Source: Acidipila sp.
GTDB taxonomy: Bacteria; Acidobacteriota; Terriglobia; Acidiferrales; UBA7541
Direction of reading: 5' to 3'
Assembly: GCA_010365215.1 (NCBI GenBank)
Contig: JAAFGT010000014.1
Span: 1 to 60,135, forward strand
DNA length: 60,135 nucleotides
Shown: positions 1,061 through 47,633 of the stretch, piece by piece
How the letters are laid out: every line of letters begins with the position of its first letter
Position numbering within the stretch: the first letter of the stretch is position 1
Notes under the pieces: model-generated
The model's input: only the letters and a program-made list of their open reading frames with translations
The model's database searches: none
What the model was told of the DNA's origin: nothing
Program-made: the position numbers and the translations under genes

Positions 1061-1594
1061 ATGCGCATTCTTCCTGACTATATGCGGGACGGCATGAAGC
1101 TGCTGATCGTGGGGTTCAATCCCGGCGAAGCTTCGGCGCGCGCAGGGCACTACTACGCGGGCCGCGGCAACCAGTTCTGGTCGCTGCTCTATGGCGGAGG
1201 CGTGGTGCCGGAGGCGCTGGAAGCCGAAGATGACCGCAGGCTGATGGAATTCGGCATCGGGCTCACTGACCTGGTCAAGCGGCCGTCACGCGGGATCGAG
1301 GAAATCAAGCGCGAAGAGTACGCCGAAGGCCGCGTGATGCTTTCGCAGAAGCTCGAGCAGCACCAGCCGCGCGTGATCGCTTTTAACGGCAAGCTGGCCT
1401 ACGAAAAATTTTCCGGGCGTCCCTGCAAGCTCGGGCTGCAAAAAGAGAAGCTCTATGGCGCGCAGGTGTTCGTGCTTCCTTCCACCAGCGGGCAGAATGC
1501 GGGAGATTCCGCAACGGATAAGGTGACCTACTTCAAGCAGCTTGCCTCGCTGCTGAGCGAGCGCGCAATCGCGAAAGGGGCCGGGCGCTCTTGA
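1061..1594 (+). CDS. mug: Mug-type G/T(U)-mismatch DNA glycosylase
   Basis: This 177-residue protein of the uracil-DNA glycosylase superfamily excises uracil or thymine from mismatches with guanine and starts base-excision repair. The family signature is clear: LPDYMRDGMKLLIVGFNPGE at the N-terminus with the catalytic Asn in GFNPG, then GHYYAGRGNQFW, and the C-terminal LPSTSGQNA loop that inserts into DNA. Its length matches Mug/TDG homologues. A strong GGAGGGG ribosome site precedes the ATG and is partly inside a leader hairpin. It lies between catabolic genes but has about 180 bp upstream and 105 bp downstream, so it may be its own transcription unit. Confidence 0.9.
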   Translation: MRILPDYMRDGMKLLIVGFNPGEASARAGHYYAGRGNQFWSLLYGGGVVPEALEAEDDRRLMEFGIGLTDLVKRPSRGIEEIKREEYAEGRVMLSQKLEQHQPRVIAFNGKLAYEKFSGRPCKLGLQKEKLYGAQVFVLPSTSGQNAGDSATDKVTYFKQLASLLSERAIAKGAGRS

Positions 1595-1699: not shown

Positions 1700-2827
1700 A
1701 TGCCCGCAACCCGCATTTCTACATTTGACGACTGGGTGGATCTCTTTCGCGAGTGGCAGAAAGACATCGGAGTGGCTTACCCGGAAGTGGTGAATTATAA
1801 ATTCGAAGCCAAATTCGGGCCTACGCGCTCCAACGAAATCGAATTTGGCGCGTACAAGGGACGACCAAAATGGAGCCGGGTGATGCAGATTCCCGATCAG
1901 CGCGTGCGCGACGCCCTGATGAACCTGATCATTTATCAAGGCGACACGGAATTTGCTTCCGTCGAGCAGCAGCGCAATCTGTTCCTGACCACGCCGAGCG
2001 AGCACGACCGCCAGTCGCTTTGCCGCGTGGTTACCGAAGAGATGCGCCACGGCTGGCAGATGTGCCACCTGCTGATCAGCCATTTCGGCCACGGCGGGCG
2101 CATCGAAGCGCAGAAGATGCTGGAGCGGCGCGCCTTCGACCAGAAGCGCTTGCTGGGCGCGTTCAACCAGGACGTAAAAAACTGGCTGGATTTTTTCACC
2201 TACACGGATTTCGTCGATCGCGACGGAAAATTTCAGCTCACCATGCTGAGCTATTCGAGCTTTGAGCCGCTGGCGCAATCCATGACGCCCATGCTGCGCG
2301 AGGAGTCTTTCCACCTGGGCACGGGCCACGATGGTATCAAGCGCATCGTGCGCGCCGGCGTGGTTCCGCTGAATATCGTGCAGAAGTACATCAATAAGTG
2401 GATACCCGTGAGCTACGACTTATTCGGAGTTGATAATTCCAGCTCCGCGCACTGGTTTTATATCTGGGGCCTGAAGGGCCGTTACGACGAGCCGCGCGCC
2501 CCGGCGGAAGCCGACCTTGGCAAAATGAATGAGCATAGCCGCAACCTCTATTACGAGGAGTGCCTGCAGCTCATCGAGCAGATCAACAAGAATGTTCCCG
2601 CGGGGCAGCCGCGGCTGTATGTGCCGGATCTGAAATTCAACCGGCACATCGGCGAGTTTGCGGACCAGCCCTACAGCGTAACCGGCGAGCTGCTCGATGC
2701 GCGCAAGTTCGATGAGTACTTGAAAGGCGTGCTGCCGCAGCCTGAAGACGTCAAGCTGGTGGGCGAAATCCAGGATACCGAGAAGCAGTGGATCGCCCCG
2801 AAAACGTTTGTGCCATCCGGAGCGTGA
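1700..2827 (+). CDS. BoxB-family diiron epoxidase (benzoyl-CoA 2,3-epoxidase-like)
   Basis: This ferritin-like diiron oxygenase resembles BoxB, which epoxidises the ring of benzoyl-CoA with O2. Matches to BoxB recalled from memory include QGDTEFASVEQQRNL (about 80-94), HFGHGGRIEAQKMLERR (128-144), DRDGKFQL (173-180) and DLFG...GLKGRY (240-262). Candidate iron ligands are Glu84, Glu114-x-x-His117 and Glu202-x-x-His205. At 375 residues it is about 100 shorter than classical BoxB (about 470), so it is a divergent subgroup and its substrate may differ. No BoxA-like reductase is seen in the window. The stop overlaps the GTG start of the CoA-transferase gene, showing translational coupling. Confidence 0.8.
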   Translation: MPATRISTFDDWVDLFREWQKDIGVAYPEVVNYKFEAKFGPTRSNEIEFGAYKGRPKWSRVMQIPDQRVRDALMNLIIYQGDTEFASVEQQRNLFLTTPSEHDRQSLCRVVTEEMRHGWQMCHLLISHFGHGGRIEAQKMLERRAFDQKRLLGAFNQDVKNWLDFFTYTDFVDRDGKFQLTMLSYSSFEPLAQSMTPMLREESFHLGTGHDGIKRIVRAGVVPLNIVQKYINKWIPVSYDLFGVDNSSSAHWFYIWGLKGRYDEPRAPAEADLGKMNEHSRNLYYEECLQLIEQINKNVPAGQPRLYVPDLKFNRHIGEFADQPYSVTGELLDARKFDEYLKGVLPQPEDVKLVGEIQDTEKQWIAPKTFVPSGA

Positions 2828-3738
2828 AGCCGGGCGCGCCATCCGCCGGCTCGGTCCGCGACGATTCGCTTGGCCACGGCTATTCGCTTGGTCAGTTGAT
2901 GGTCGCCGCCGCGGCGAGAGAAATTCATGACCACGAAATCGTCTTCGTAGGCATGCGGCTTCCTATGCTGGGGTTCCTGGTGGCGCGCCGCACCCATGCG
3001 CCTGGCGCCATTGGGCTGTACGAGAATGGCGTGATCCGCGAGACGCCCGCGACCGAGTTGCTCTATACCATGGCGGATCCTCCCAACCTGCGTGGCGCCA
3101 CTTTTTGCGGCCAGATGCTCGACGTGATGGCGCTGCTGCAACAGGGCAGGGTGAACGTGGGATTTCTCGGCGCAGCCGAAGTGGATCGCTTCGGCAATCT
3201 CAATTCCACTTTAGCGCGGCGGGACGGAAAAACTATTCGCTTGCCTGGCTCGGGCGGCGCGTGCGACATCGCTTGCCTGGCGCAGCGCACCGTGGTCCTG
3301 CTGCAGCACGAGCGCGCGCGGCTTCCTGAACGAGTGGCGTACGTAACTTCCCCCGGAAACGGGAAGGGGGACAGCGCTGTCAATAGCGCTGGGAACAGCA
3401 TTGGCAACAATGCTTGGAAAAATGCTGGGAACACGTCCGGGAACAGTGCTGAAAAACCATCCGCGCGCAGAAGCGAGCACGCATGGCGGCGCGCGCAAGG
3501 CTTGCCGGCAAATTCCGGGCCGTCCGCCGTCATCACCACCAAGGGCGTGATGCGATTTGACGCCGCCGGCGAAGCGTTCCTGGCCTCCGTGCACCCCGGT
3601 GCCGAAATCGAAGATGTTCTGGCGAATACCGGATGGCCCCTGCGCGTCGCGGAGAAGTTGCAAGTGACTGCCGTGCCCGCTGCCGCGGAACTCGCGGTGA
3701 TGCGCGAGATCGATCCGCAAGGATTCTGGACGAAATAG
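2824..3738 (+). CDS. CoA-transferase, glutaconate-type beta subunit, with Asn/Gly-rich insert
   Basis: This is a class I CoA-transferase subunit of the GctB type that would pair with the subunit encoded at 5074-6018. I chose the GTG at 2824 because it overlaps the preceding stop (GTGA) and places the family opening (GYSLGQLMVAAAAREI) near residue 15. Conserved segments include FVGMRLPMLG, LLQQGRVNVGFLGAAEVDRFGNLN and the GSGGACDIA loop. Between VAYVTSPG and GLPANSGPSAVITTKGV lies an unusual stretch of about 40 residues made of NSAGNS/NNAWKNAG-like repeats, absent from typical homologues. The two subunits are separated by two other genes, which is also unusual. Confidence 0.8.
   Translation: MKPGAPSAGSVRDDSLGHGYSLGQLMVAAAAREIHDHEIVFVGMRLPMLGFLVARRTHAPGAIGLYENGVIRETPATELLYTMADPPNLRGATFCGQMLDVMALLQQGRVNVGFLGAAEVDRFGNLNSTLARRDGKTIRLPGSGGACDIACLAQRTVVLLQHERARLPERVAYVTSPGNGKGDSAVNSAGNSIGNNAWKNAGNTSGNSAEKPSARRSEHAWRRAQGLPANSGPSAVITTKGVMRFDAAGEAFLASVHPGAEIEDVLANTGWPLRVAEKLQVTAVPAAAELAVMREIDPQGFWTK
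3355..3465 (+). repeat. Imperfect 12-18 bp coding repeat inside the CoA-transferase gene
   Basis: The stretch is built of drifting copies of aaygctgggaaca-like units and encodes an Asn/Ser/Gly-rich loop. It looks like slippage-driven expansion within a surface loop. Frame is kept throughout, so the gene is intact. Confidence 0.55.
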
Positions 3739-3740
3739 AC

Positions 3741-4526
3741 GTGTCATCCGCCAGCACAGCTACGGTTCACGCCACTGTAGAGAATGGCGTGGCGCGCGTT
3801 CTGCTCGACCGGCCGCCGCTCAACATCATCGATATTCCGATGATGCAGGCGCTCGGCGCTGCGCTCGAGAGCGTTCTCCCTGGCGCGAAGATGCTGGTCA
3901 TGAGCGGGGCAGGCACCAGGGCGTTTTCCGCAGGCGTCGAGGTGAGCGATCACTTGCCGGAGCGCGTGGGCGAAATGCTGCGCACGTTCCACGCCATCTT
4001 CCGGCAGATTGCCGGCGCAAAATGCCTGACCATTGCCGCGGTGCAGGGGCACTGTCTGGGCGGCGGATGCGAACTGGCGACGTTTTGCGATTTCGTGGTC
4101 GCTACGGAGTCGGCGACATTTGGCCAACCGGAAATTAAGCTGGGCTGTTTCCCCCCGGTGGCAATGGTTACGCTGCCTCGCCTGTGCGGCTTGCGCGCTT
4201 CGCTGGACCTGATCCTCACAGGACGCACAATTTCCGCCGGCGAGGCGCAGAAAATAGGATTGGTCACGCGCATCGTTGCGGATAACCTTCTGGATGACGG
4301 AGTGGAGAGCATGCTCCAGGAGTTGCGCGGGCTAAGTCCCAGCGTCTTGGAGATCACTCGACGGGCACTGCGCGGCTGCGGGAGGTTCGATTTTGAGCGA
4401 GAGCTCGCCGAAATGGAAACGCTTTACCTTGGCGGGCTTATGAAGACCGCGGACGCTGCCGAGGGCATTCGGGCGTTCATGGAAAAGCGCGCACCGGTCT
4501 GGACAGGCGGGTTGGCACCGCAATGA
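3741..4526 (+). CDS. Dienoyl-CoA hydratase-like crotonase (Dch family)
   Basis: This 261-residue crotonase resembles cyclohexa-1,5-diene-1-carbonyl-CoA hydratase (Dch) of the anaerobic benzoyl-CoA pathway. From memory the shared features are FSAGVEVSDHLPE (61-73), GHCLGGGCELA (103-113), FGQPEIKLGCFPP (127-139) and the end METLYLGGLM...FMEKRAPVW. Catalytic acids correspond to Glu111 and Glu131. I took the GTG at 3741, two bases after the previous stop, since translation further upstream has no homology. The Dch assignment sets it apart from the general hydratase at 74-883. It overlaps the next gene by ATGA. Confidence 0.75.
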   Translation: MSSASTATVHATVENGVARVLLDRPPLNIIDIPMMQALGAALESVLPGAKMLVMSGAGTRAFSAGVEVSDHLPERVGEMLRTFHAIFRQIAGAKCLTIAAVQGHCLGGGCELATFCDFVVATESATFGQPEIKLGCFPPVAMVTLPRLCGLRASLDLILTGRTISAGEAQKIGLVTRIVADNLLDDGVESMLQELRGLSPSVLEITRRALRGCGRFDFERELAEMETLYLGGLMKTADAAEGIRAFMEKRAPVWTGGLAPQ

Positions 4527-5077
4527 CGACGGAAGTCACCATCGATCGCGCGCACTTCCTGGCGCTGATTGTCGCGGAGGCCAACTCGGAAGGTCAGCCT
4601 CTGAACGAGCTGGAGAAGAAATGCATGAGCATCGCGCTCGAGGGTGCGGTGCGACAAAAAGAATTTGCGGAGATCAAAAAACAGTTTCCCAGCATGGAAA
4701 CGTTCGACCAGTTCGTTGCGCGTGCCGCGCGTCTGGTGGAGCGCGCCCTGCTGCACGAGGTCGAAGCGCAGCCTGGGTTGACACCGCACGCGCGCGCGAT
4801 GATGGAAAGATTTCTGGCAGGGGGCGGAGAATCCCTCGTCGAGGGCACGATCTCTGCGGCTATGTTTGGGCGGATGCCTCCGGCGCTGCGCGCATTGGGA
4901 ATCACCGCCGTGGTACTGCCTCTGGCAGTGGTGATTGGCTGGCGCCTGTACGCGATTCTGAACGGTGGCCGCCTGCCGTCGTCGAGCCGATCCGCCGTCG
5001 AGGTGGCACTGGCGCTAGTGGCCGCCGTGGCGGTTTGGGTGGTGCTGAATCTCTTGAAAAAAATAAGCCACCAGTGA
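4523..5077 (+). CDS. Unknown protein with two C-terminal membrane segments
   Basis: I do not recognise this 184-residue protein. The first 120 residues are charged and probably helical. Two hydrophobic segments follow, at about 127-146 (ALGITAVVLPLAVVIGWRLY) and 160-178 (VEVALALVAAVAVWVVLNLL), so it is likely a small inner-membrane protein with a cytoplasmic head. It overlaps the preceding dienoyl-CoA hydratase by 4 bp and the following CoA-transferase subunit by 4 bp (GTGA), so it is translated with them. Why a membrane protein sits between the CoA-transferase halves is unclear. Confidence 0.7.
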   Translation: MTTEVTIDRAHFLALIVAEANSEGQPLNELEKKCMSIALEGAVRQKEFAEIKKQFPSMETFDQFVARAARLVERALLHEVEAQPGLTPHARAMMERFLAGGGESLVEGTISAAMFGRMPPALRALGITAVVLPLAVVIGWRLYAILNGGRLPSSSRSAVEVALALVAAVAVWVVLNLLKKISHQ

Positions 5078-6018
5078 GCCATCAGTCAAAACTCGCGGCG
5101 ATGGGCACGGCGATCGCCACGCACGTGCCTTCGGGTGCGTCCGTGCTGCTCGGGGCGCAACTCGAGCAGATGATCCCGTTCGCCGCCGGCCACGAAATTA
5201 TTCGCCAGGGGATTCGCGAGCTGACCCTGATGGGGCCGATTTCGGACATTCTGTTCGATCAAATGATCGGCGCAGGCTGCGTGGCGCGGGTCTATGCCGC
5301 TTGGGTGGGCAACGTTTCGGCGGGCGTGGGTTACTGTTTCCGTCGCGCCATGGAGGACGGGCTGCCGTCGCCCATCGAGATGCTCGACTATTCGAATTTT
5401 ACGATGGCGCTTGCGCTGCACGCCGGGGCGCTGGGCGTGCCGTTTCTGCCCACTTACTCCACGCTGGGAAGCGACCTGCTCGAAAAAAACAGCAAGCTGC
5501 GCGAGTTTGTTTCCCCGTTGCCTGCTTATGGCACTGCGGATCGGAAAGAAAAGCTTGTCGCCGTGGAAGCTCTACGCCCCGACGTGGCTATCCTGCATGT
5601 ACAGCGCTGCGATGAATTCGGGAATGCCCATGTGTGGGGAAACCTTGGCGTGGCGGTAGACGCGGCGCGTGCGGCGCGCACGGTAGTCGTCGTCGCGGAA
5701 GAGATTGTCTCACCCAGCGTGATCGCCTCGGACCCGAACCGCACGCTCATACCGGGTTTTCTCGTCGCCGCCGTAGTGCACCAGCCGGGCGGCGCGCATC
5801 CATCTCCCGTGCAAGGATATTACGGCCGCGATCACGCCTATTTTGCGCAGTATCACGAGCAGTCGCGCAGCGCCGGTGATTTCGAAAGTTGGAAGGCGCG
5901 CTGGGTCACCGGCGTCGCCGACCGCGGCGAGTACATGAATCTGCTCGGTTCATGCCGCGTGGAAGCCCTGGGTGTTAAGGAGCATGCCTACTCCGCGCCC
6001 GCGGATTTCGGTTATTAA
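5074..6018 (+). CDS. CoA-transferase, glutaconate-type alpha subunit
   Basis: This is a GctA-like subunit of a class I CoA-transferase, 314 residues, the likely partner of 2824-3738. Family features are PSGASVLLGAQLEQMIPFAAGHEIIRQ at the N-terminus, LTLMGPISDILFDQMIGAGCV, and the C-terminal IPGFLVAAVVHQPGGAHPS motif followed by GYYGRDHAYF. The start is the GTG at 5074, overlapping the preceding stop; an ATG at 5101 would be the alternative. The enzyme would move CoA between an aromatic-derived or dicarboxylic acid and an acyl-CoA donor (family knowledge); its substrate is not determined. Confidence 0.82.
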   Translation: MSHQSKLAAMGTAIATHVPSGASVLLGAQLEQMIPFAAGHEIIRQGIRELTLMGPISDILFDQMIGAGCVARVYAAWVGNVSAGVGYCFRRAMEDGLPSPIEMLDYSNFTMALALHAGALGVPFLPTYSTLGSDLLEKNSKLREFVSPLPAYGTADRKEKLVAVEALRPDVAILHVQRCDEFGNAHVWGNLGVAVDAARAARTVVVVAEEIVSPSVIASDPNRTLIPGFLVAAVVHQPGGAHPSPVQGYYGRDHAYFAQYHEQSRSAGDFESWKARWVTGVADRGEYMNLLGSCRVEALGVKEHAYSAPADFGY

Positions 6019-6080
6019 AGTAACCTCGCGCGGCAAGGGCAGGCGCGCGCTTTAGATAGGACCATTCGAAAGGAGCAGGG

Positions 6081-6425
6081 TTGGCGAAAGTACAATTCAT
6101 ACACAAGCCCACTTGAACGTCGTGCCGGAAAGCAAGAGGTCTCTTGCTGGAAAAAGGCGTGGAGATGGAGTTTCGCGACATCAACGCCGATCCGCTTTCG
6201 GTGCAGGAGCTCGACGCGTTGATTGGCGAGCGGGACTATAAAGATTTTCTAAACACGCGTAACGAGCTCTATCGCACCCGCAACATGAAAGAGAAGCCGC
6301 CATCGCGCAAAGAAGCACTGGCACTGATGGCCAGGGAGCCCAATCTCATTCGGCGCCCCGTGGTCATTCGTGGAAATAGAATTATCCTGGGCTACGATGA
6401 AGAGGCTCTGAAGAAGCTCGGCTAG
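6081..6425 (+). CDS. ArsC/Spx-family thioredoxin-fold selenoprotein (Sec at in-frame TGA, codon 12)
   Basis: Reading from the TTG at 6081, five bases after an AGGAG site, gives an ArsC/Spx-type protein of 114 residues interrupted only by TGA at 6114-6116. The TGA falls exactly on the first cysteine of the family's redox motif: HKPT-U12-TS-C15-RKAR. In ArsC and Spx that first residue is the catalytic cysteine. Downstream the fold continues normally, with FRDINADPLS, DFLNTRNELYR and the basic LIRRPVVIRGNRIILGYDEE segment. A SECIS-like hairpin lies at 6132-6147. Ordinary gene callers would start at the TTG at 6144 and lose the active site. It lies 19 bp before hcrC. A sequencing error or true nonsense mutation is the alternative reading. 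Confidence 0.8.
6114..6150 (+). promoter_or_regulatory. Bacterial SECIS-like element after the in-frame TGA
   Basis: GCAAG (6132-6136) pairs perfectly with CUUGC (6143-6147) around the loop AGGUCU (6137-6142). From memory the E. coli fdhF SECIS bound by SelB has the same AGGUCU loop, about 17 nt after its UGA; here the loop begins 20 nt after the UGA. CC (6125-6126) and GG (6149-6150) can extend the stem. The bulged U of fdhF is not obvious, which is the weak point. Confidence 0.7.
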
Positions 6426-6443
6426 CACGCGACTGGAGATACC

Positions 6444-6953
6444 GTGCATAACTCAGCGACCAAAGAAATTCTGCGGCTGAAGGTGAATGGCGAGGAGCGC
6501 GAAGCGCTGGCGCCGCCGCACAAGTTGCTGCTTGACGTGCTGCGAGAGGATCTGGCGTTGACCGGCTCGAAGCGCGGCTGCGACGATTCCAGCTGCGGCT
6601 GCTGCGCGGTGCTGGTCGACGGCGTGCCCACGCTGGCTTGCGTCGCGCTGGCCGCCAGCTACCAGGATTGCGAGATCACCACTGTGGAAGGCATCGCCGC
6701 GCCGGGCACGCTCACAGCTGTGCAGGAAGGTTACGTGGAAGCAGGCGGCACGCAATGCGGCTTCTGCACGCCGGGATTTCTTATCGCCACCAAGGCGCTG
6801 CTGGATCGCAATCCCGAACCGACGCCGGACGATATTCGCGAGGCGCTGAGCTCAAATCTCTGCCGCTGCACCGGCTACATGCAGATTTATGAATCGGTGC
6901 GGCTGGCGATCGAGCGCACTAAATCCAGCCAGCTCGACGCAGTGAGGAGCTGA
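6444..6953 (+). CDS. hcrC: 4-hydroxybenzoyl-CoA reductase gamma subunit, 2x[2Fe-2S]
   Basis: This is the small iron-sulfur subunit of a xanthine-oxidase-family enzyme, 169 residues. The N-terminal plant-ferredoxin cluster is bound by Cys46, Cys51, Cys54 and Cys66 (GCDDSSCGCC motif). The second cluster has Cys105-x2-Cys108 (CGFC) and Cys140-x-Cys142 (CRC). It passes electrons between the molybdenum site and FAD. The GTG start at 6444 has GGAG a few bases upstream. It lies 2 bp before hcrA, in the order C-A-B. The subunit alone could belong to other hydroxylases; the hcrB neighbour decides the assignment. Confidence 0.85.
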   Translation: MHNSATKEILRLKVNGEEREALAPPHKLLLDVLREDLALTGSKRGCDDSSCGCCAVLVDGVPTLACVALAASYQDCEITTVEGIAAPGTLTAVQEGYVEAGGTQCGFCTPGFLIATKALLDRNPEPTPDDIREALSSNLCRCTGYMQIYESVRLAIERTKSSQLDAVRS

Positions 6954-6955
6954 TC

Positions 6956-9295
6956 GTGGCGGCAAAATACACTCTGATCGGCAAGCCCATGCCCATGACG
7001 GACGCAAAGTCCAAAGTTACCGGGCAAGGGCTGTACACCGACGATATTTCCGTGCCGGGAATGCTGGTGGGACGAATATTGCATTCTCCGCATGCGCACG
7101 CGCTCATTCGCCGCATCGACACCGCGCGCGCCGCAGCGCTACCCGGCGTGAAGGCTGTAGTCACCGGCCTCGATGCGCCCAAGCCTTACGGCATTCTGCC
7201 GGTAGGCCACGACGAGCAGGTGCTGCAGTCCGGCAAGGCGCGCTACATTGGTGACAACATCGCCGCCGTCGCTGCCACCTCCGCGGAAATTGCCGAACAC
7301 GCTCTAAGCCTGATTGAAGTGGACTACGAAGTGCTTCCGGCATTTTTCGATCCGCGCGAGTCCATGAAAGCGGCGGCCGGGTGGATTCACGACACCAAGC
7401 CGAACAACATCGAGAAGGAATACCACCACCACTTCGGCAACGTGGACGAGGGCTTCGCGCAGGCGCAGTTCGTGCGCGAGGAGTCCTACTACGCCGGTGA
7501 AGTCACCCACGCCGCGATGGAGCCGCATTCCACGCTGGCCATCTGGGAGCCCGACCAGCGCATGACCGTCTATTCCTCGACGCAGGTGCCTTACTACCTG
7601 CACCGCACACTCTCCGACGTTTGCGAAATGCCCATGAGCCAGATTCGCGTGATCAAGCCGCTGATCGGAGGCGGATTTGGCGGCAAGAGCGAGATTATTC
7701 CGTTGGAAGTTGCCGCCGCAGTGCTGGCCAAAAAGGCCAAGCGCCCGGTAAAAATTACTTACACCCGCGAAGAAGTTTTTTACGCGCATCGCGGCCGGCC
7801 GATCACCTACGTGGATCTGAAAGTCGGCCTCACGCGCGAAGGCAAGATCACCGCCGTGGCCGCGCGCGTGGTGCAGGATGGCGGCGCCTACTGCGGGTAT
7901 GGCCCAGTCACCGTGCTTTATTCCGGCGCGCTGCTGGGCGCCATCTACGACATCCCCAACGTGAAGTATGACGGCTTCCGCGTGCTGACCAATAAGCCAG
8001 CGTGCGGAGCGATGCGCGGGCACGGCACGGTCAACGTGCGGTTCGCGTTTGAGGCCATGCTCGACGCGCTGGCACACGATGCCGGAATCGACCCGGTGGA
8101 CGTGCGCCGGCGCAATCTGCTGAATGCGCCGTGCATCACTGTCAACGGCCTTCGCGTCACCAGCTACGGCTTGCCGGAATGCATCGAGCGCGCCACCGAA
8201 CACGCCGGCTGGAATGATAAAAAAGGAAAGCTGCCGCGCGGACGCGGAATCGGAATGGCCTGCAGTCATTACGTGAGCGGCGCGGCGAATCCCATCGTGC
8301 GCTCGAACATCCCGCATACCACGGTCAACATTAAAGTCGATCGCGACGCCAGCATCACGGTTTTTACCGGCGCCGCCGAGATCGGGCAGGGTTCAGACAC
8401 CATGCACGTCCAACTCACCGCCGAAGTGCTGGGCGTGCGCCCCGATCGCGTGCACCTCGTGGTGGCGGACACCGATCTTACGCCAATCGATCTTGGCAGC
8501 TACTCCAGCCGCGTCACCTTTATGGCCGGCAACGCCTGCATCGCCGCGGCAAAAAATATGCGTGAGCAGATTCTGGCAGGCGTGGCAAAAAAACTTGGCT
8601 GTGAAGCAAGCGAGCTCGATCTTCGCGAGGAACAGCTTTTCGTGAAAGGTGAATCCGCGGCGCGCATGAATTTCGATCAGGCCATCGCCGCGGCGCTGGA
8701 ATTCCAGGGCGGGCTGGTGGCGCGGGGCACCTACCAGCCTCCGGAAACAGCGCGCGGAGGAAAATTTAAGGGCGCGGGAGTGGGGCCTTCGCCTTCCTAT
8801 AGTTACAGCGCGCAGGTCGCCGAAGTCAGCGTGGACGTCGAGACCGGACGCGTCACCGTGGAGAGTATCGTGGCGGCGCATGATTGCGGCCGCGCGCTCA
8901 ATCCGTTGACGGTCGAAGGTCAAATCGAGGGTTCGGTCTACATGGGACTCGGCCAGGCGTTGCAGGAAGAAATGATCTGGGAGAATGGCCGGCTGATGAA
9001 TCCAACGCTGCTCGAATACCGCATTCCCTCCACTCTGGAGACTCCGGAAATCGAATCGATCATCATCGAGAGCATCGATCCGGAGGGGCCGTTCGGCGCG
9101 AAAGAAGCCGGCGAAGGTTCTCTCGCTGCCACGATTCCGGCGATCGCCAACGCCATTTACGACGCCGTGGGCGTGCGCATCAACTCTCTCCCCATTACAC
9201 CCGAAAAAGTATTGGCAGCGCTGCAAGAAAAACAGAAACGCGAGCGAGCGGCCGCAACAAATATGTCCGGCAATGGCGGCGGAGGGGCGCGATGA
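6956..9295 (+). CDS. hcrA: 4-hydroxybenzoyl-CoA reductase alpha subunit, molybdopterin-binding
   Basis: This is the large catalytic subunit, 779 residues, of a molybdenum enzyme expected to remove the phenolic hydroxyl of 4-hydroxybenzoyl-CoA, giving benzoyl-CoA. It has the two xanthine-oxidase-family domains. Visible motifs are the IGGGFGGKSE cofactor loop, ACGAMRGHG, TGAAEIGQGSDT, the LGSYSSRVTFMAGNA segment that resembles HcrA, and the catalytic glutamate in GAKEAGEGS near residue 718. The GTG at 6956 follows hcrC directly, and its stop overlaps hcrB by ATGA, so the three subunits are co-translated. Confidence 0.87.
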   Translation: MAAKYTLIGKPMPMTDAKSKVTGQGLYTDDISVPGMLVGRILHSPHAHALIRRIDTARAAALPGVKAVVTGLDAPKPYGILPVGHDEQVLQSGKARYIGDNIAAVAATSAEIAEHALSLIEVDYEVLPAFFDPRESMKAAAGWIHDTKPNNIEKEYHHHFGNVDEGFAQAQFVREESYYAGEVTHAAMEPHSTLAIWEPDQRMTVYSSTQVPYYLHRTLSDVCEMPMSQIRVIKPLIGGGFGGKSEIIPLEVAAAVLAKKAKRPVKITYTREEVFYAHRGRPITYVDLKVGLTREGKITAVAARVVQDGGAYCGYGPVTVLYSGALLGAIYDIPNVKYDGFRVLTNKPACGAMRGHGTVNVRFAFEAMLDALAHDAGIDPVDVRRRNLLNAPCITVNGLRVTSYGLPECIERATEHAGWNDKKGKLPRGRGIGMACSHYVSGAANPIVRSNIPHTTVNIKVDRDASITVFTGAAEIGQGSDTMHVQLTAEVLGVRPDRVHLVVADTDLTPIDLGSYSSRVTFMAGNACIAAAKNMREQILAGVAKKLGCEASELDLREEQLFVKGESAARMNFDQAIAAALEFQGGLVARGTYQPPETARGGKFKGAGVGPSPSYSYSAQVAEVSVDVETGRVTVESIVAAHDCGRALNPLTVEGQIEGSVYMGLGQALQEEMIWENGRLMNPTLLEYRIPSTLETPEIESIIIESIDPEGPFGAKEAGEGSLAATIPAIANAIYDAVGVRINSLPITPEKVLAALQEKQKRERAAATNMSGNGGGGAR

Positions 9296-10287
9296 CGCTG
9301 CCTGCATTTCGCCTGGAGCGACCAGCTCGGCTGGCGGATGCGGTTCGCATCCTGGTTGCGCACGGGCCGGAAGCGATGATCATTGCCGGCGGCACGGACG
9401 TGGTGCCCAACCTGCAAATGAAGCTTTTTTCGCCGCGCGTGGTGGTGGATCTAAAACCGCTGCGGGAACTTGCCGGCATCGAGTTCACGCCTGCGAGCGG
9501 ACTGCGCATCGGCGCGATGACCACGCTCACGGCCATCATGCAATCCTCGTTAGTCCGCAGCAAATTTCCGGTATTGGCCAGTGCCGTTGGCACCATTGCC
9601 GGTCCGCTGCAGCGCAACATGGGCACGCTGGGTGGCAATCTTTGCCTGGAGACGCGCTGCCGGTGGTACAACCAGTCGCAATTCTGGCGGAATGCGCTGG
9701 GCGGATGTTTAAAGCTCGAAGGCGATGTGTGTCATGTAGCGCCCGCGGGGAAATTCTGCTGGGCTGCCTGGTCGGGTGACGCGGCGCCGGCTCTTCTGGC
9801 ACTTGACGCGGAGATTGAAATCACCGGCCCGGCGGGCGCGCGACGAATGCCGCTGGGCGATTTTTACACGAACGACGGCATGAGCCGCATCGCGCTGGCA
9901 CGCGGTGAAATGGTCACGGCGATTCATGTGCCGCCTCGCATGGCCGGCCGCCGCGGTGTCTACCACAAGCTGCGCATCCGCAACTCGATTGACTATCCGC
10001 TGGCTGGCGTCGCGGTGACCATGGACGCCGACGCACAGGGTGTATGCCGCGAAGCGCGCGTAGCGGTTTCAGCGGTGAATCCCGCTCCGCTGCTGGTGAA
10101 GGAGGCAGGCGAGCTTCTCACCGGGCGCCGCCCGTCCGCCGAGCTGATGGAAGAAATCGCCCACGCTGCCATTTCCACCGGTAAACCACTCACTACCTCG
10201 GCTTCCACTCCGGTCTATCGACGCGAAATGTTGAAGCTATTTACGCGCCGGGCCCTTGAAGAACTCTGGCAGAATGGGCGCGCGTAG
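9292..10287 (+). CDS. hcrB: 4-hydroxybenzoyl-CoA reductase beta subunit, FAD and [4Fe-4S]
   Basis: This is the FAD-binding subunit, 331 residues. FAD motifs are IIAGGTDVVP (30-39) and GTLGGNLC (111-118). What marks it as HcrB rather than any xanthine-dehydrogenase middle subunit is the extra loop with Cys123-x15-Cys139-x7-Cys147-x8-Cys156. From memory the Thauera enzyme binds its [4Fe-4S] cluster with Cys122, 138, 146 and 155, the same spacing. That cluster links FAD to the other centres and allows the inverted electron flow of a reductase. The ATG at 9292 overlaps the hcrA stop. Confidence 0.9.
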   Translation: MTLPAFRLERPARLADAVRILVAHGPEAMIIAGGTDVVPNLQMKLFSPRVVVDLKPLRELAGIEFTPASGLRIGAMTTLTAIMQSSLVRSKFPVLASAVGTIAGPLQRNMGTLGGNLCLETRCRWYNQSQFWRNALGGCLKLEGDVCHVAPAGKFCWAAWSGDAAPALLALDAEIEITGPAGARRMPLGDFYTNDGMSRIALARGEMVTAIHVPPRMAGRRGVYHKLRIRNSIDYPLAGVAVTMDADAQGVCREARVAVSAVNPAPLLVKEAGELLTGRRPSAELMEEIAHAAISTGKPLTTSASTPVYRREMLKLFTRRALEELWQNGRA

Positions 10288-10326: not shown

Positions 10327-11193
10327 TTGACGCCGATCATGACTCCGATCATCGATATCCACATACACATCCAGCCGCTGCACATGTTCAAGCCCGAGGC
10401 GCTGGAACTGGTCAAGCGCGGCCGGCGGGATTACGCCCAGGTCGAGGAATTTTCCGCGAAACCGGCATCTTTTTTGAAGTTTCTAGACGACCTCGGTATC
10501 GAGCGCGCCGGGATCATCAATTACGTGAGCCCTGAAGTGATCGGTTTCCCGCCCGCGGTTAACGATTGGGCCGCGAAATATTGCTCCGCTGCGCCTGACC
10601 GGCTGATTGCTTTCGGGTCGGTGCATCCCAAGTTCGTGCCCGACACTGGCGGCGAAGTGGATCGCCTGGCCAGGCTGGGCATCCGCGGGTTGAAGGTGCA
10701 TCCTTCGCACCAGCTTTTTTCTCCCAACGATTACCGGCACGGCTTCGGCCCGCTGGCTTCTCTCTACGAACGTGCTGCGGCGAACGGCATGCCGGTCATG
10801 ATCCACACGGGAACATCTATTTTTCCGGGCGCGCGCAACGTTCACGCGCAGCCCATGCTGGCTGACGACGTGAGCGTCGATTATCCCAACCTGGTCGTGA
10901 TCCTCGCGCACGGCGGCAGGCCGCTGTGGATGAACGAAGCGTTCTTCCTGGTCCGCCGGCACAAAAACATGTACATGGATATTTCCGGCATCCCTCCGCA
11001 AAAGCTGCTGGAATATTTTCCGCGCATCGAGGAGATTGCCGACAAGGTTCTGTTCGGCACGGACTGGCCGGGCCCGGGCGTCCCCGATATACGGGGTAAT
11101 ATTGAGAAATTCATGGGGCTGCCGATTGCGGACGGCGCTCGGCGGAAAATTCTCTACGACAACGCGGCGCGGCTGTTCCCCGTGCACAAATAA
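10327..11193 (+). CDS. Amidohydrolase-2 family metal-dependent hydrolase
   Basis: This TIM-barrel hydrolase or decarboxylase belongs to the ACMSD-related amidohydrolase_2 family. The metal motif HIHI (from IIDIHIHIQ) opens the protein, MIHTGTS and VILAHGGRPLW carry the later histidines, and LFGTDWPGPG carries the C-terminal aspartate. Length is 288 residues. The TTG at 10327 has GAGAG six bases upstream; the ATG at 10339 is an alternative. It follows hcrB by 39 bp and precedes a hydroxyacyl-CoA dehydrogenase, so it may act on a ring-derived carboxylate (inference). Its substrate is unknown. Confidence 0.82.
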   Translation: MTPIMTPIIDIHIHIQPLHMFKPEALELVKRGRRDYAQVEEFSAKPASFLKFLDDLGIERAGIINYVSPEVIGFPPAVNDWAAKYCSAAPDRLIAFGSVHPKFVPDTGGEVDRLARLGIRGLKVHPSHQLFSPNDYRHGFGPLASLYERAAANGMPVMIHTGTSIFPGARNVHAQPMLADDVSVDYPNLVVILAHGGRPLWMNEAFFLVRRHKNMYMDISGIPPQKLLEYFPRIEEIADKVLFGTDWPGPGVPDIRGNIEKFMGLPIADGARRKILYDNAARLFPVHK

Positions 11194-11229: not shown

Positions 11230-12099
11230 ATGGACGTAAAAACGATTACCGTGATTGGCGCCGGGACCATGGGGCGGGGCATCGCCTACGCGGCTGCGCT
11301 GGGCGGCTTTCGCACCATCCTCGAGGATGTGCAGCCCGAACAGCTCCAGCAGGCGCTGGCTACCATAAGCACATCGCTCGATGAAGGCATGCAGCGCGGG
11401 AAGGTAACCGCGCAACAGAAAATCGAAACGCTGGCGCGGATTTCCACGGCAAATTCGGTTGACCTGGCCTGCCGCGACGCCGATCTGATCATCGAAGCGG
11501 TGCCCGAAGATTTGGAAATGAAGATCGACATTTTCTGTATCCTGGAAAAGTTTGCCAGGCCGGGCGCTATTTTCGCGACCAATACCTCGTCGCTTTCAGT
11601 CACGGAGATCGCCGCGGTCACCAGCCGGCCGGAGCTGTGCATCGGTCTGCATTTTTTTAACCCCGTTCCGAAGATGAAGCTGCTGGAAATTGTGCGCGCG
11701 CTGGAAACTTCCGAGCAGACGGTGAATGCCTGCCGCGAAGTGGGCATAAAGATGGGCAAGGAGGTGGTGGTAATCCGTGAATCGCCCGGATTCATCACCA
11801 GCCGCATCAACGCCATGATCGGCAACGAAGCGTTTTACATGCTGGAGCAGGGCATCGCCTCGGCGCGCGAGATCGATACGGCCATCAAGCTGGGGCTCAA
11901 CCATCCCATGGGCCCATTCGAGCTGGTGGACCTGGTGGGGCTGGATGTGCGTCTGTCGATTCTGGAATATCTGCACCGCACGCTCGGCGAGAAGTTCCGG
12001 CCTTGCCCGCTTTTGGTGCAGCACGTCAAGGCTGGCCGGCTGGGACGCAAAGCCGGGCGCGGCGTCTACGAATATCACCAACCGGAGAAGAAGGTTTAA
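11230..12099 (+). CDS. 3-hydroxyacyl-CoA dehydrogenase (3-hydroxybutyryl-CoA dehydrogenase type)
   Basis: This 289-residue NAD-dependent enzyme oxidises 3-hydroxyacyl-CoA to 3-ketoacyl-CoA or the reverse. The N-terminal Rossmann motif is VIGAGTMGRGIA. Catalytic-region motifs are TNTSSLSVTEIA, GLHFFNPVPKMKLLEIV with the active histidine, and ESPGFITSRI. The C-terminal dimer domain starts near NHPMGPFELVDLVGLDV. Length matches stand-alone Hbd/PaaH proteins. In this block it could carry out the dehydrogenation after ring opening (inference). The next gene begins one base after its stop. Confidence 0.92.
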   Translation: MDVKTITVIGAGTMGRGIAYAAALGGFRTILEDVQPEQLQQALATISTSLDEGMQRGKVTAQQKIETLARISTANSVDLACRDADLIIEAVPEDLEMKIDIFCILEKFARPGAIFATNTSSLSVTEIAAVTSRPELCIGLHFFNPVPKMKLLEIVRALETSEQTVNACREVGIKMGKEVVVIRESPGFITSRINAMIGNEAFYMLEQGIASAREIDTAIKLGLNHPMGPFELVDLVGLDVRLSILEYLHRTLGEKFRPCPLLVQHVKAGRLGRKAGRGVYEYHQPEKKV

Positions 12100-31679: not shown

Positions 31680-31783
31680 GGAACTTCGGGTTCTCTGCGG
31701 CACACGAAACTTTCCCGTTACCGTTGCTCCCTTCCGGGCCTGGCGGGGTTGGCGGGGGCTCGTTGCACAGAGCCCGAAGTTCC
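31680..31783 (-). ncRNA. ffs: Signal recognition particle RNA, small bacterial type
   Basis: On the minus strand, terminal sequences GGAACUUCGGG and CCCGAAGUUCC (31773-31783 and 31680-31690) close a long rod of about 104 nt. The conserved Ffh-binding apical part is present: GCCAGGCCCGGAAGGGAGCA with a GGAA tetraloop, matching the 4.5S pattern. It lies upstream of dnaX on the same strand, a common position for ffs. The RNA binds Ffh to target membrane proteins. Confidence 0.93.
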
Positions 31784-40462: not shown

Positions 40463-40537
40463 TGGCTCCGGGGCCTGGACTCGAACCAGGATAGCCAGAT
40501 CCAAAGTCTGGTGGCCTACCGATTAGCCGACCCCGGA
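40463..40537 (-). tRNA. tRNA-Gln (anticodon UUG)
   Basis: The minus strand folds into a complete cloverleaf: acceptor TCCGGGG/CCCCGGA, anticodon stem CCAGA-TCTGG around loop CTTTGGA (anticodon TTG), T arm with GGTTCGAGTCC. A CCA end is encoded at 40463-40465. Confidence 0.97.

Positions 40538-47543: not shown

Positions 47544-47633
<90 letters not shown>

Follow-up and report, generated by a model that had tools for sequence, protein, structure and literature searches.

A candidate ArsC/Spx-fold selenoprotein of Acidobacteriota encoded beside 4-hydroxybenzoyl-CoA reductase genes

Is an in-frame TGA near the start of a small ArsC-like gene a stop codon, or is it read as selenocysteine (Sec, U), and what would such a protein do among genes for aromatic-CoA breakdown? 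The question is raised by a locus of Acidipila sp., a member of the Acidobacteriota, which are abundant and mostly uncultured soil bacteria. The stretch of DNA analysed, referred to as the window, comprises 60,135 nt of contig JAAFGT010000014.1 (assembly GCA_010365215.1), and window coordinates are used throughout. Translation of the plus strand showed a frame of 114 codons at 6081..6425 whose sole interruption is the TGA at 6114..6116, codon 12, as a previous reading made from the letters of the DNA (the sequence-only reading) had stated. The frame starts with a TTG that aligns with the ATG start of relatives (MAK...), ends with TAG at 6423-6425, and is preceded by the Shine-Dalgarno sequence AAAGGAG (6069..6075, plus strand) 5 nt before the TTG, in agreement with the well-spaced AGGAG site described earlier. 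With the TGA read as Sec, the translation is LAKVQFIHKPT-U-TSCRKARGLLLEKG..., in which the active-site motif is KPT-U-TS-C-RKAR. The gap between this gene and hcrC, which begins with GTG at 6444, is 18 bp rather than the 19 bp first reported.

The predicted protein of 114 aa belongs to the ArsC/Spx fold, matching PF03960 (ArsC) in Pfam with 66.5 bits (gathering threshold 24; 2.6e-18) and also a glutaredoxin Pfam family (1.1e-8). Its AlphaFold2 model had a pLDDT of 94 and a pTM of 0.83, and the top PDB matches of the model in Foldseek were Spx, ArsC-like proteins and YffB, with TM scores mostly about 0.8-0.86, those of the best matches being 0.82-0.86. In the model, U12 directly precedes helix 13-24, the position that the attacking residue takes in the ArsC/Spx fold. 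An alignment of 24 homologues showed that positions 12 and 15 and F56-L57-N58 are kept, and R91-R92-P93 nearly always. The claim that the TGA stands at the first redox-Cys position of an ArsC/Spx-family protein is borne out by the motif and by homologues that carry Cys at this codon.

The gene was present in 68 of the 89 genomes of the same bacterial family that were surveyed. Among the loci fetched, 42 have TGA at codon 12, spread across nine genera, and 29 have a Cys codon there, so that the Sec/Cys pairs proposed as a check are abundant. The rest of the frame is conserved in the TGA homologues, with about 64-77% identity among those aligned. One further Sec locus from f2, a second family of the order, and one from f10, a further family of the class, complete the set of 44 Sec loci used below. 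Sec was also found at the same residue in relatives from several other families across the phylum and in one deltaproteobacterial record (L048). Within the family the Sec and Cys states are clustered on the tree, with five changes. A plasmid search for homologues found only distant relatives (<60% identity). The six genomes of genus g5 all carry the Cys form, and in five of them (G016, G493, G494, G495 and G496) SelA was not found. In g5, loss of the Sec trait and the Sec-to-Cys change thus go together, and most genomes of genus g4 retained SelA.

The genome of the window (4.1 Mb, 98% complete) was searched for the Sec machinery, as the sequence-only reading had advised. The results showed that all four components are present: a tRNA-Sec of 99 nt with a UCA anticodon, SelA (545 bits), SelB (366.5 bits) and SelD (365.6 bits), the last with an in-frame TGA of its own. 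Upstream of this selD (L074, G000:C88:24480-25442) and in the same frame, a second TGA occurs in the context ..ECGIAL-TGA-WTGGHDRSCPCEEL.., followed by a strong hairpin, GGGCACGACAGGTCGTGCCC; this is possibly a second selenoprotein beside selD. In the operon of the ArsC-like gene, TGA terminates hcrC, hcrA, ech2, boxB and others; because it serves there as a normal stop, a general change of the code was rejected.

A candidate SECIS element was found at 6131..6148 (plus strand). It starts 14 nt past the TGA and reads AGCAAGA-GGUC-UCUUGCU, that is, 7 bp with a GGUC loop, or 6 bp with an AGGUCU loop, the latter being the same as the SECIS loop of E. coli fdhF. Its place just downstream of the codon and the G in its apical loop are those of bacterial selenoprotein SECIS elements. 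The same hairpin (GCAAGAGGUCUCUUGC) directly follows the TGA in every TGA homologue except three and is missing from the Cys homologues: six or seven of the seven pairs are formed in 41/44 Sec loci, and the mean for the 29 Cys loci is 2.9. Across a set of 20 distinct sequences, pairing was found in 98.6% of cells, compared with 32-60% when the partner was slid by one to three bases, and four sequences carry a compensatory G-C to A-U change at hairpin columns 23/30. In other families, GCCAGG-AGUUU-CCUGGC and similar hairpins occur at nearly the same place and covary.

Codon usage under the hairpin was likewise unusual. Codon 19 is AGA in 40/44 Sec loci and in no Cys locus, AGA making up 0.8% of local Arg codons, and codon 22 is TTG in 41/44 Sec loci, TTG making up 9% of Leu codons. 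Randomisation of synonymous codons gave the exact 7-bp hairpin in 0.06% of the draws and some stem of at least 7 bp near the site in 1.2%. The minimum free energy of a 40-nt segment was not significant (z -0.07; for 63 nt, z -2.06), so the case for the SECIS rests on position, conservation and covariation.

The three exceptions (L186, L190 and L195, in genomes G486, G490 and G491) are Sec forms of the same family within the mostly Cys genus g4, and SelA was found in all three genomes. Their hairpins have another sequence and a register shifted by one to three bases, that of L190 being GCUCGAC-AGUUC-GUUGAGC. They may have regained Sec together with a SECIS formed anew, or else an existing SECIS may have shifted its place. 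In the ArsC tree the three are nested in Cys forms (AU p 0.02, for a group named after the tree had been seen), and a two-gene ArsC+Mug tree places them, without support, as sister to the Cys forms of g4.

The computational checks put forward by the sequence-only reading, on the Sec machinery and on Sec/Cys pairs, all came out in its favour, and with the conserved, covarying hairpin they strongly support the Sec reading. With the hairpin after UGA 6114 as their guide, SelB and Sec-tRNA(Sec) would, as judged by comparison, almost certainly insert Sec at residue 12. The product would be a thioredoxin-fold protein of 114 residues that belongs to the ArsC/Spx group and has its active site, U12-T-S-C15, where helix 1 begins. 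By analogy with the established chemistry of the fold, the U12 selenolate would probably attack a disulfide or another oxidised sulfur, and C15 would resolve the mixed selenosulfide; thioredoxin or a low-molecular-weight thiol would then reduce the U12-C15 bond again. A selenol/thiol oxidoreductase, perhaps for CoA or protein disulfides, is the most likely function. As a whole, a recoded selenoprotein with a redox role in this gene context is the best explanation of 6081-6425, and one that we hold with good confidence.

The neighbouring genes, all on the plus strand, bear on what the substrate might be. Upstream lie genes for a mug-like uracil/thymine-DNA glycosylase (1061..1594; best matches TIGR00584 and NF007570, below their cut-offs), a BoxB-like di-iron protein related to benzoyl-CoA epoxidase (1700..2827; 3PER, E=3.9e-56; TIGR03225, 231 bits, below the cut-off of 499), a CoA-transferase-like subunit B (2788..3738; PF01144), an enoyl-CoA hydratase/dienoyl-CoA hydratase-like protein (ech2, 3675..4526) and a CoA-transferase-like subunit A of the glutaconate CoA-transferase/IpdA type (5077..6018, start approximate; 1POI_A, E=5.2e-45; PF01144); crotonase-fold proteins are also encoded on this side. 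Downstream are an hcrC-like [2Fe-2S] subunit gene (6444..6953; best match TIGR03193, 181 bits, below the cut-off of 257.8), hcrA for the alpha subunit of 4-hydroxybenzoyl-CoA reductase (6956..9295; TIGR03194, 1033.9 bits, above 994.55; 1RM6 chain A, E=2.4e-245) and hcrB for the FAD subunit (9292..10287; 1RM6 chain B, E=1.3e-73), the Cys of the insert characteristic of this reductase being aligned. Two conserved operon neighbours follow, an amidohydrolase 2 gene (10327..11193; PF04909) and a 3-hydroxyacyl-CoA dehydrogenase gene (11230..12099; NF006722, 423.7 bits against a cut-off of 429). The ArsC-like gene is thus flanked by CoA-transferase genes on one side and a genuine hcrCAB on the other, inside an aromatic-CoA operon as had been proposed. 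Elsewhere in the window, a small SRP RNA (31681-31779, minus strand), a tRNA-Gln (40463-40537, minus strand) and a tRNA-Ser (47544-47633, plus strand) were found.

Gene order suggests, tentatively, that the most plausible task of the protein in the pathway would be to keep CoA or the cysteine-rich enzymes reduced, for instance by stripping CoAlated proteins of CoA or other thiols; we regard this role as possible but somewhat unlikely. In B. subtilis, CoA is removed from proteins by thioredoxin-like CxxC proteins (PMC10136147), an example that demonstrates the chemistry as such and not its performance by the Sec protein. A stronger version, in which aromatic-CoA catabolism has in this protein a Sec-specific redox partner that keeps 4-hydroxybenzoyl-CoA reductase or the CoA-thiol pool of the pathway working, with Sec selected where hcrCAB is present, is doubtful.

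It is quite possible, if short of an even chance, that the link is one of position, a general thiol/selenol oxidoreductase gene being resident between mug and a macro gene while catabolic genes were inserted and lost around it. The mug gene lies upstream of 35/44 Sec and 23/29 Cys loci, and hcr, boxB and the CoA-transferase genes come and go. The plain Cys arrangement is mug-arsC-macro, and Cys forms with mug and macro and no catabolic genes were found (L057, L153, L157 and L194); because Cys homologues persist there, the operon linkage may be partly positional. Other families share no neighbours with this locus, the neighbours elsewhere in the phylum being different, and relatives in family f28 carry Sec forms but lack all of these genes; together with the Cys forms that lack catabolic genes, this means that a pathway-specific role is not required. 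Against mere residence, hcrC lies directly downstream of the Sec gene in 12 genomes of seven genera, all 12 with the Sec form; ech2 stands beside 32 Sec loci and no Cys locus; and in an f2 genome the Sec gene is beside ech2 and boxB. The 12 cases are not phylogenetically independent evidence. Since the Sec and Cys states are clustered on the tree, leaving about three independent contrasts, a test of Sec against hcr or ech2 that took the tree into account had no power and was not significant, and no association of Sec with hcr is established. This positional account is compatible with the redox part of the preferred explanation.

A strict tie between the Sec form and the catabolic operon was rejected: several Cys loci (L169, L172 and L181) keep boxB, CoA-transferase and amidohydrolase genes, many Sec loci lack hcr, and around many only mug, ech2 and the hydroxyacyl-CoA dehydrogenase gene are found. 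A general partnership with Mo-hydroxylases was likewise not built on; outside the family, CODH/HCR-like genes lying within 8 kb were seen only in f80 (L115 and L116) and in L136, at 25-43% identity. In Sec relatives of the UTTC group, from other acidobacterial families, a DUF72 gene (about 310 aa) adjoins downstream, identified by a Pfam match in L119 and L126 and by size and position in L120, L122 and L125.

The sequence and fold are nearest to Spx, including the stretch that reads CTSCRKAR in Spx, and the protein scored just over the cut-off of TIGR01617 (Spx/MgsR) in NCBIfam (76.2 against 75.05 bits). It might accordingly be an Spx/MgsR-like redox-sensing regulator that binds RNA polymerase and tunes the operon through a U12-C15 selenosulfide switch. 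We consider this improbable. Close relatives of the same gene family (L110, L190 and L063) fall below the TIGR01617 cut-off with 67.9-74.3 bits, the Spx models proper are far from reached (67.2 bits against 123), and the C-terminal tail of Spx is missing. In addition, Gly52 of Spx is needed for binding the alpha-CTD, and its column holds Asp52, invariant in the 24 homologues.

Membership of the Pfam ArsC family would also fit an arsenate reductase in which Sec replaces the catalytic Cys, a very unlikely identity that was rejected on the equivalog cut-off of TIGR00014 (46.3 bits against 106.05). The match to E. coli ArsC extends no further than chain residue 99 and does not reach the C-terminal part of its arsenate site, no ars genes are among the annotated neighbours, and the motif is UxxC, not a single catalytic thiol. 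Some Sec relatives in other families (L131 and L134, and similarly L132 and L136) are nearer to true ArsC, L131 and L134 scoring 93-96 bits against the TIGR00014 cut-off of 106, and are possible Sec arsenate reductases, judged by sequence. Finally, that UGA 6114 is a real stop, in a pseudogene or with reinitiation at TTG 6144 to give a 93-residue protein, is extremely improbable: the frame 6144-6425 exists mechanically, but TGA occupies the same codon across genera with both sides under protein-level constraint, and the Cys counterparts, the SECIS and the Sec machinery all speak against it.

Comparative evidence thus ties to UGA recoding a selenoprotein subfamily of Acidobacteriota that lies outside the sole curated ArsC-type selenoprotein model. 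With the UGA as early as codon 12, genes of this kind readily escape standard annotation. The family offers dozens of closely related Sec and Cys forms, in which the SECIS has one main register and one or more shifted ones, as a good natural series for work on how bacteria exchange Sec and Cys. Should the operon link prove functional, the availability of selenium would bear on how aromatic compounds are degraded in soil.

A list from 2006 already included ArsC-like selenoproteins (PMC1794560). The 2008 ocean (GOS) survey distinguished UxxS and UxxC forms, the latter under cd03032 (PMC2398784), and a 2026 review tied the UxxC form to NF041106 (PMC13188914). The window protein resembles this UxxC selenoprotein (Arsenate reductase 2 of the GOS survey) in its ArsC/Spx type, its UxxC motif with Sec first and its bacterial SECIS, the likeness to the cd03032 form being one of motif; however, its NF041106 score of 33.7 bits, like the 27-36 bits of the relatives listed, is far short of the cut-off of 85, so that filing it there failed. 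Arsenate reductase 1 of the GOS survey shares the ArsC Pfam family and Sec at the catalytic position but has UxxS (PMC2398784) instead of UxxC. Spx/MgsR proteins (TIGR01617; PDB 1Z3E, 3GFK and 6GHO), characterised regulators in Firmicutes, share the CTSCRKAR stretch (TM about 0.82, 28-30% identity), whereas they have Cys in place of Sec, a longer C-terminus and a Gly52 that the Sec protein does not conserve. YffB and ArsC-related proteins (PDB 1RW1 and 3GKX) have the same fold and length (TM 0.84-0.85) but are Cys forms. The hcrA and hcrB products are clear homologues of 4-hydroxybenzoyl-CoA reductase (PDB 1RM6), including the Cys insert of HcrB. In the literature searched, no selenoprotein was linked to this reductase; the new context claimed by the sequence-only reading therefore stands as unreported there, while its meaning is weakened in that the link may be partly positional. 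Its remark that Sec forms of thioredoxin-fold proteins are known in general was right, and since ArsC/Spx-like UxxC selenoproteins have been published (PMC1794560, PMC2398784, PMC13188914), what is new here is the subfamily and its context.
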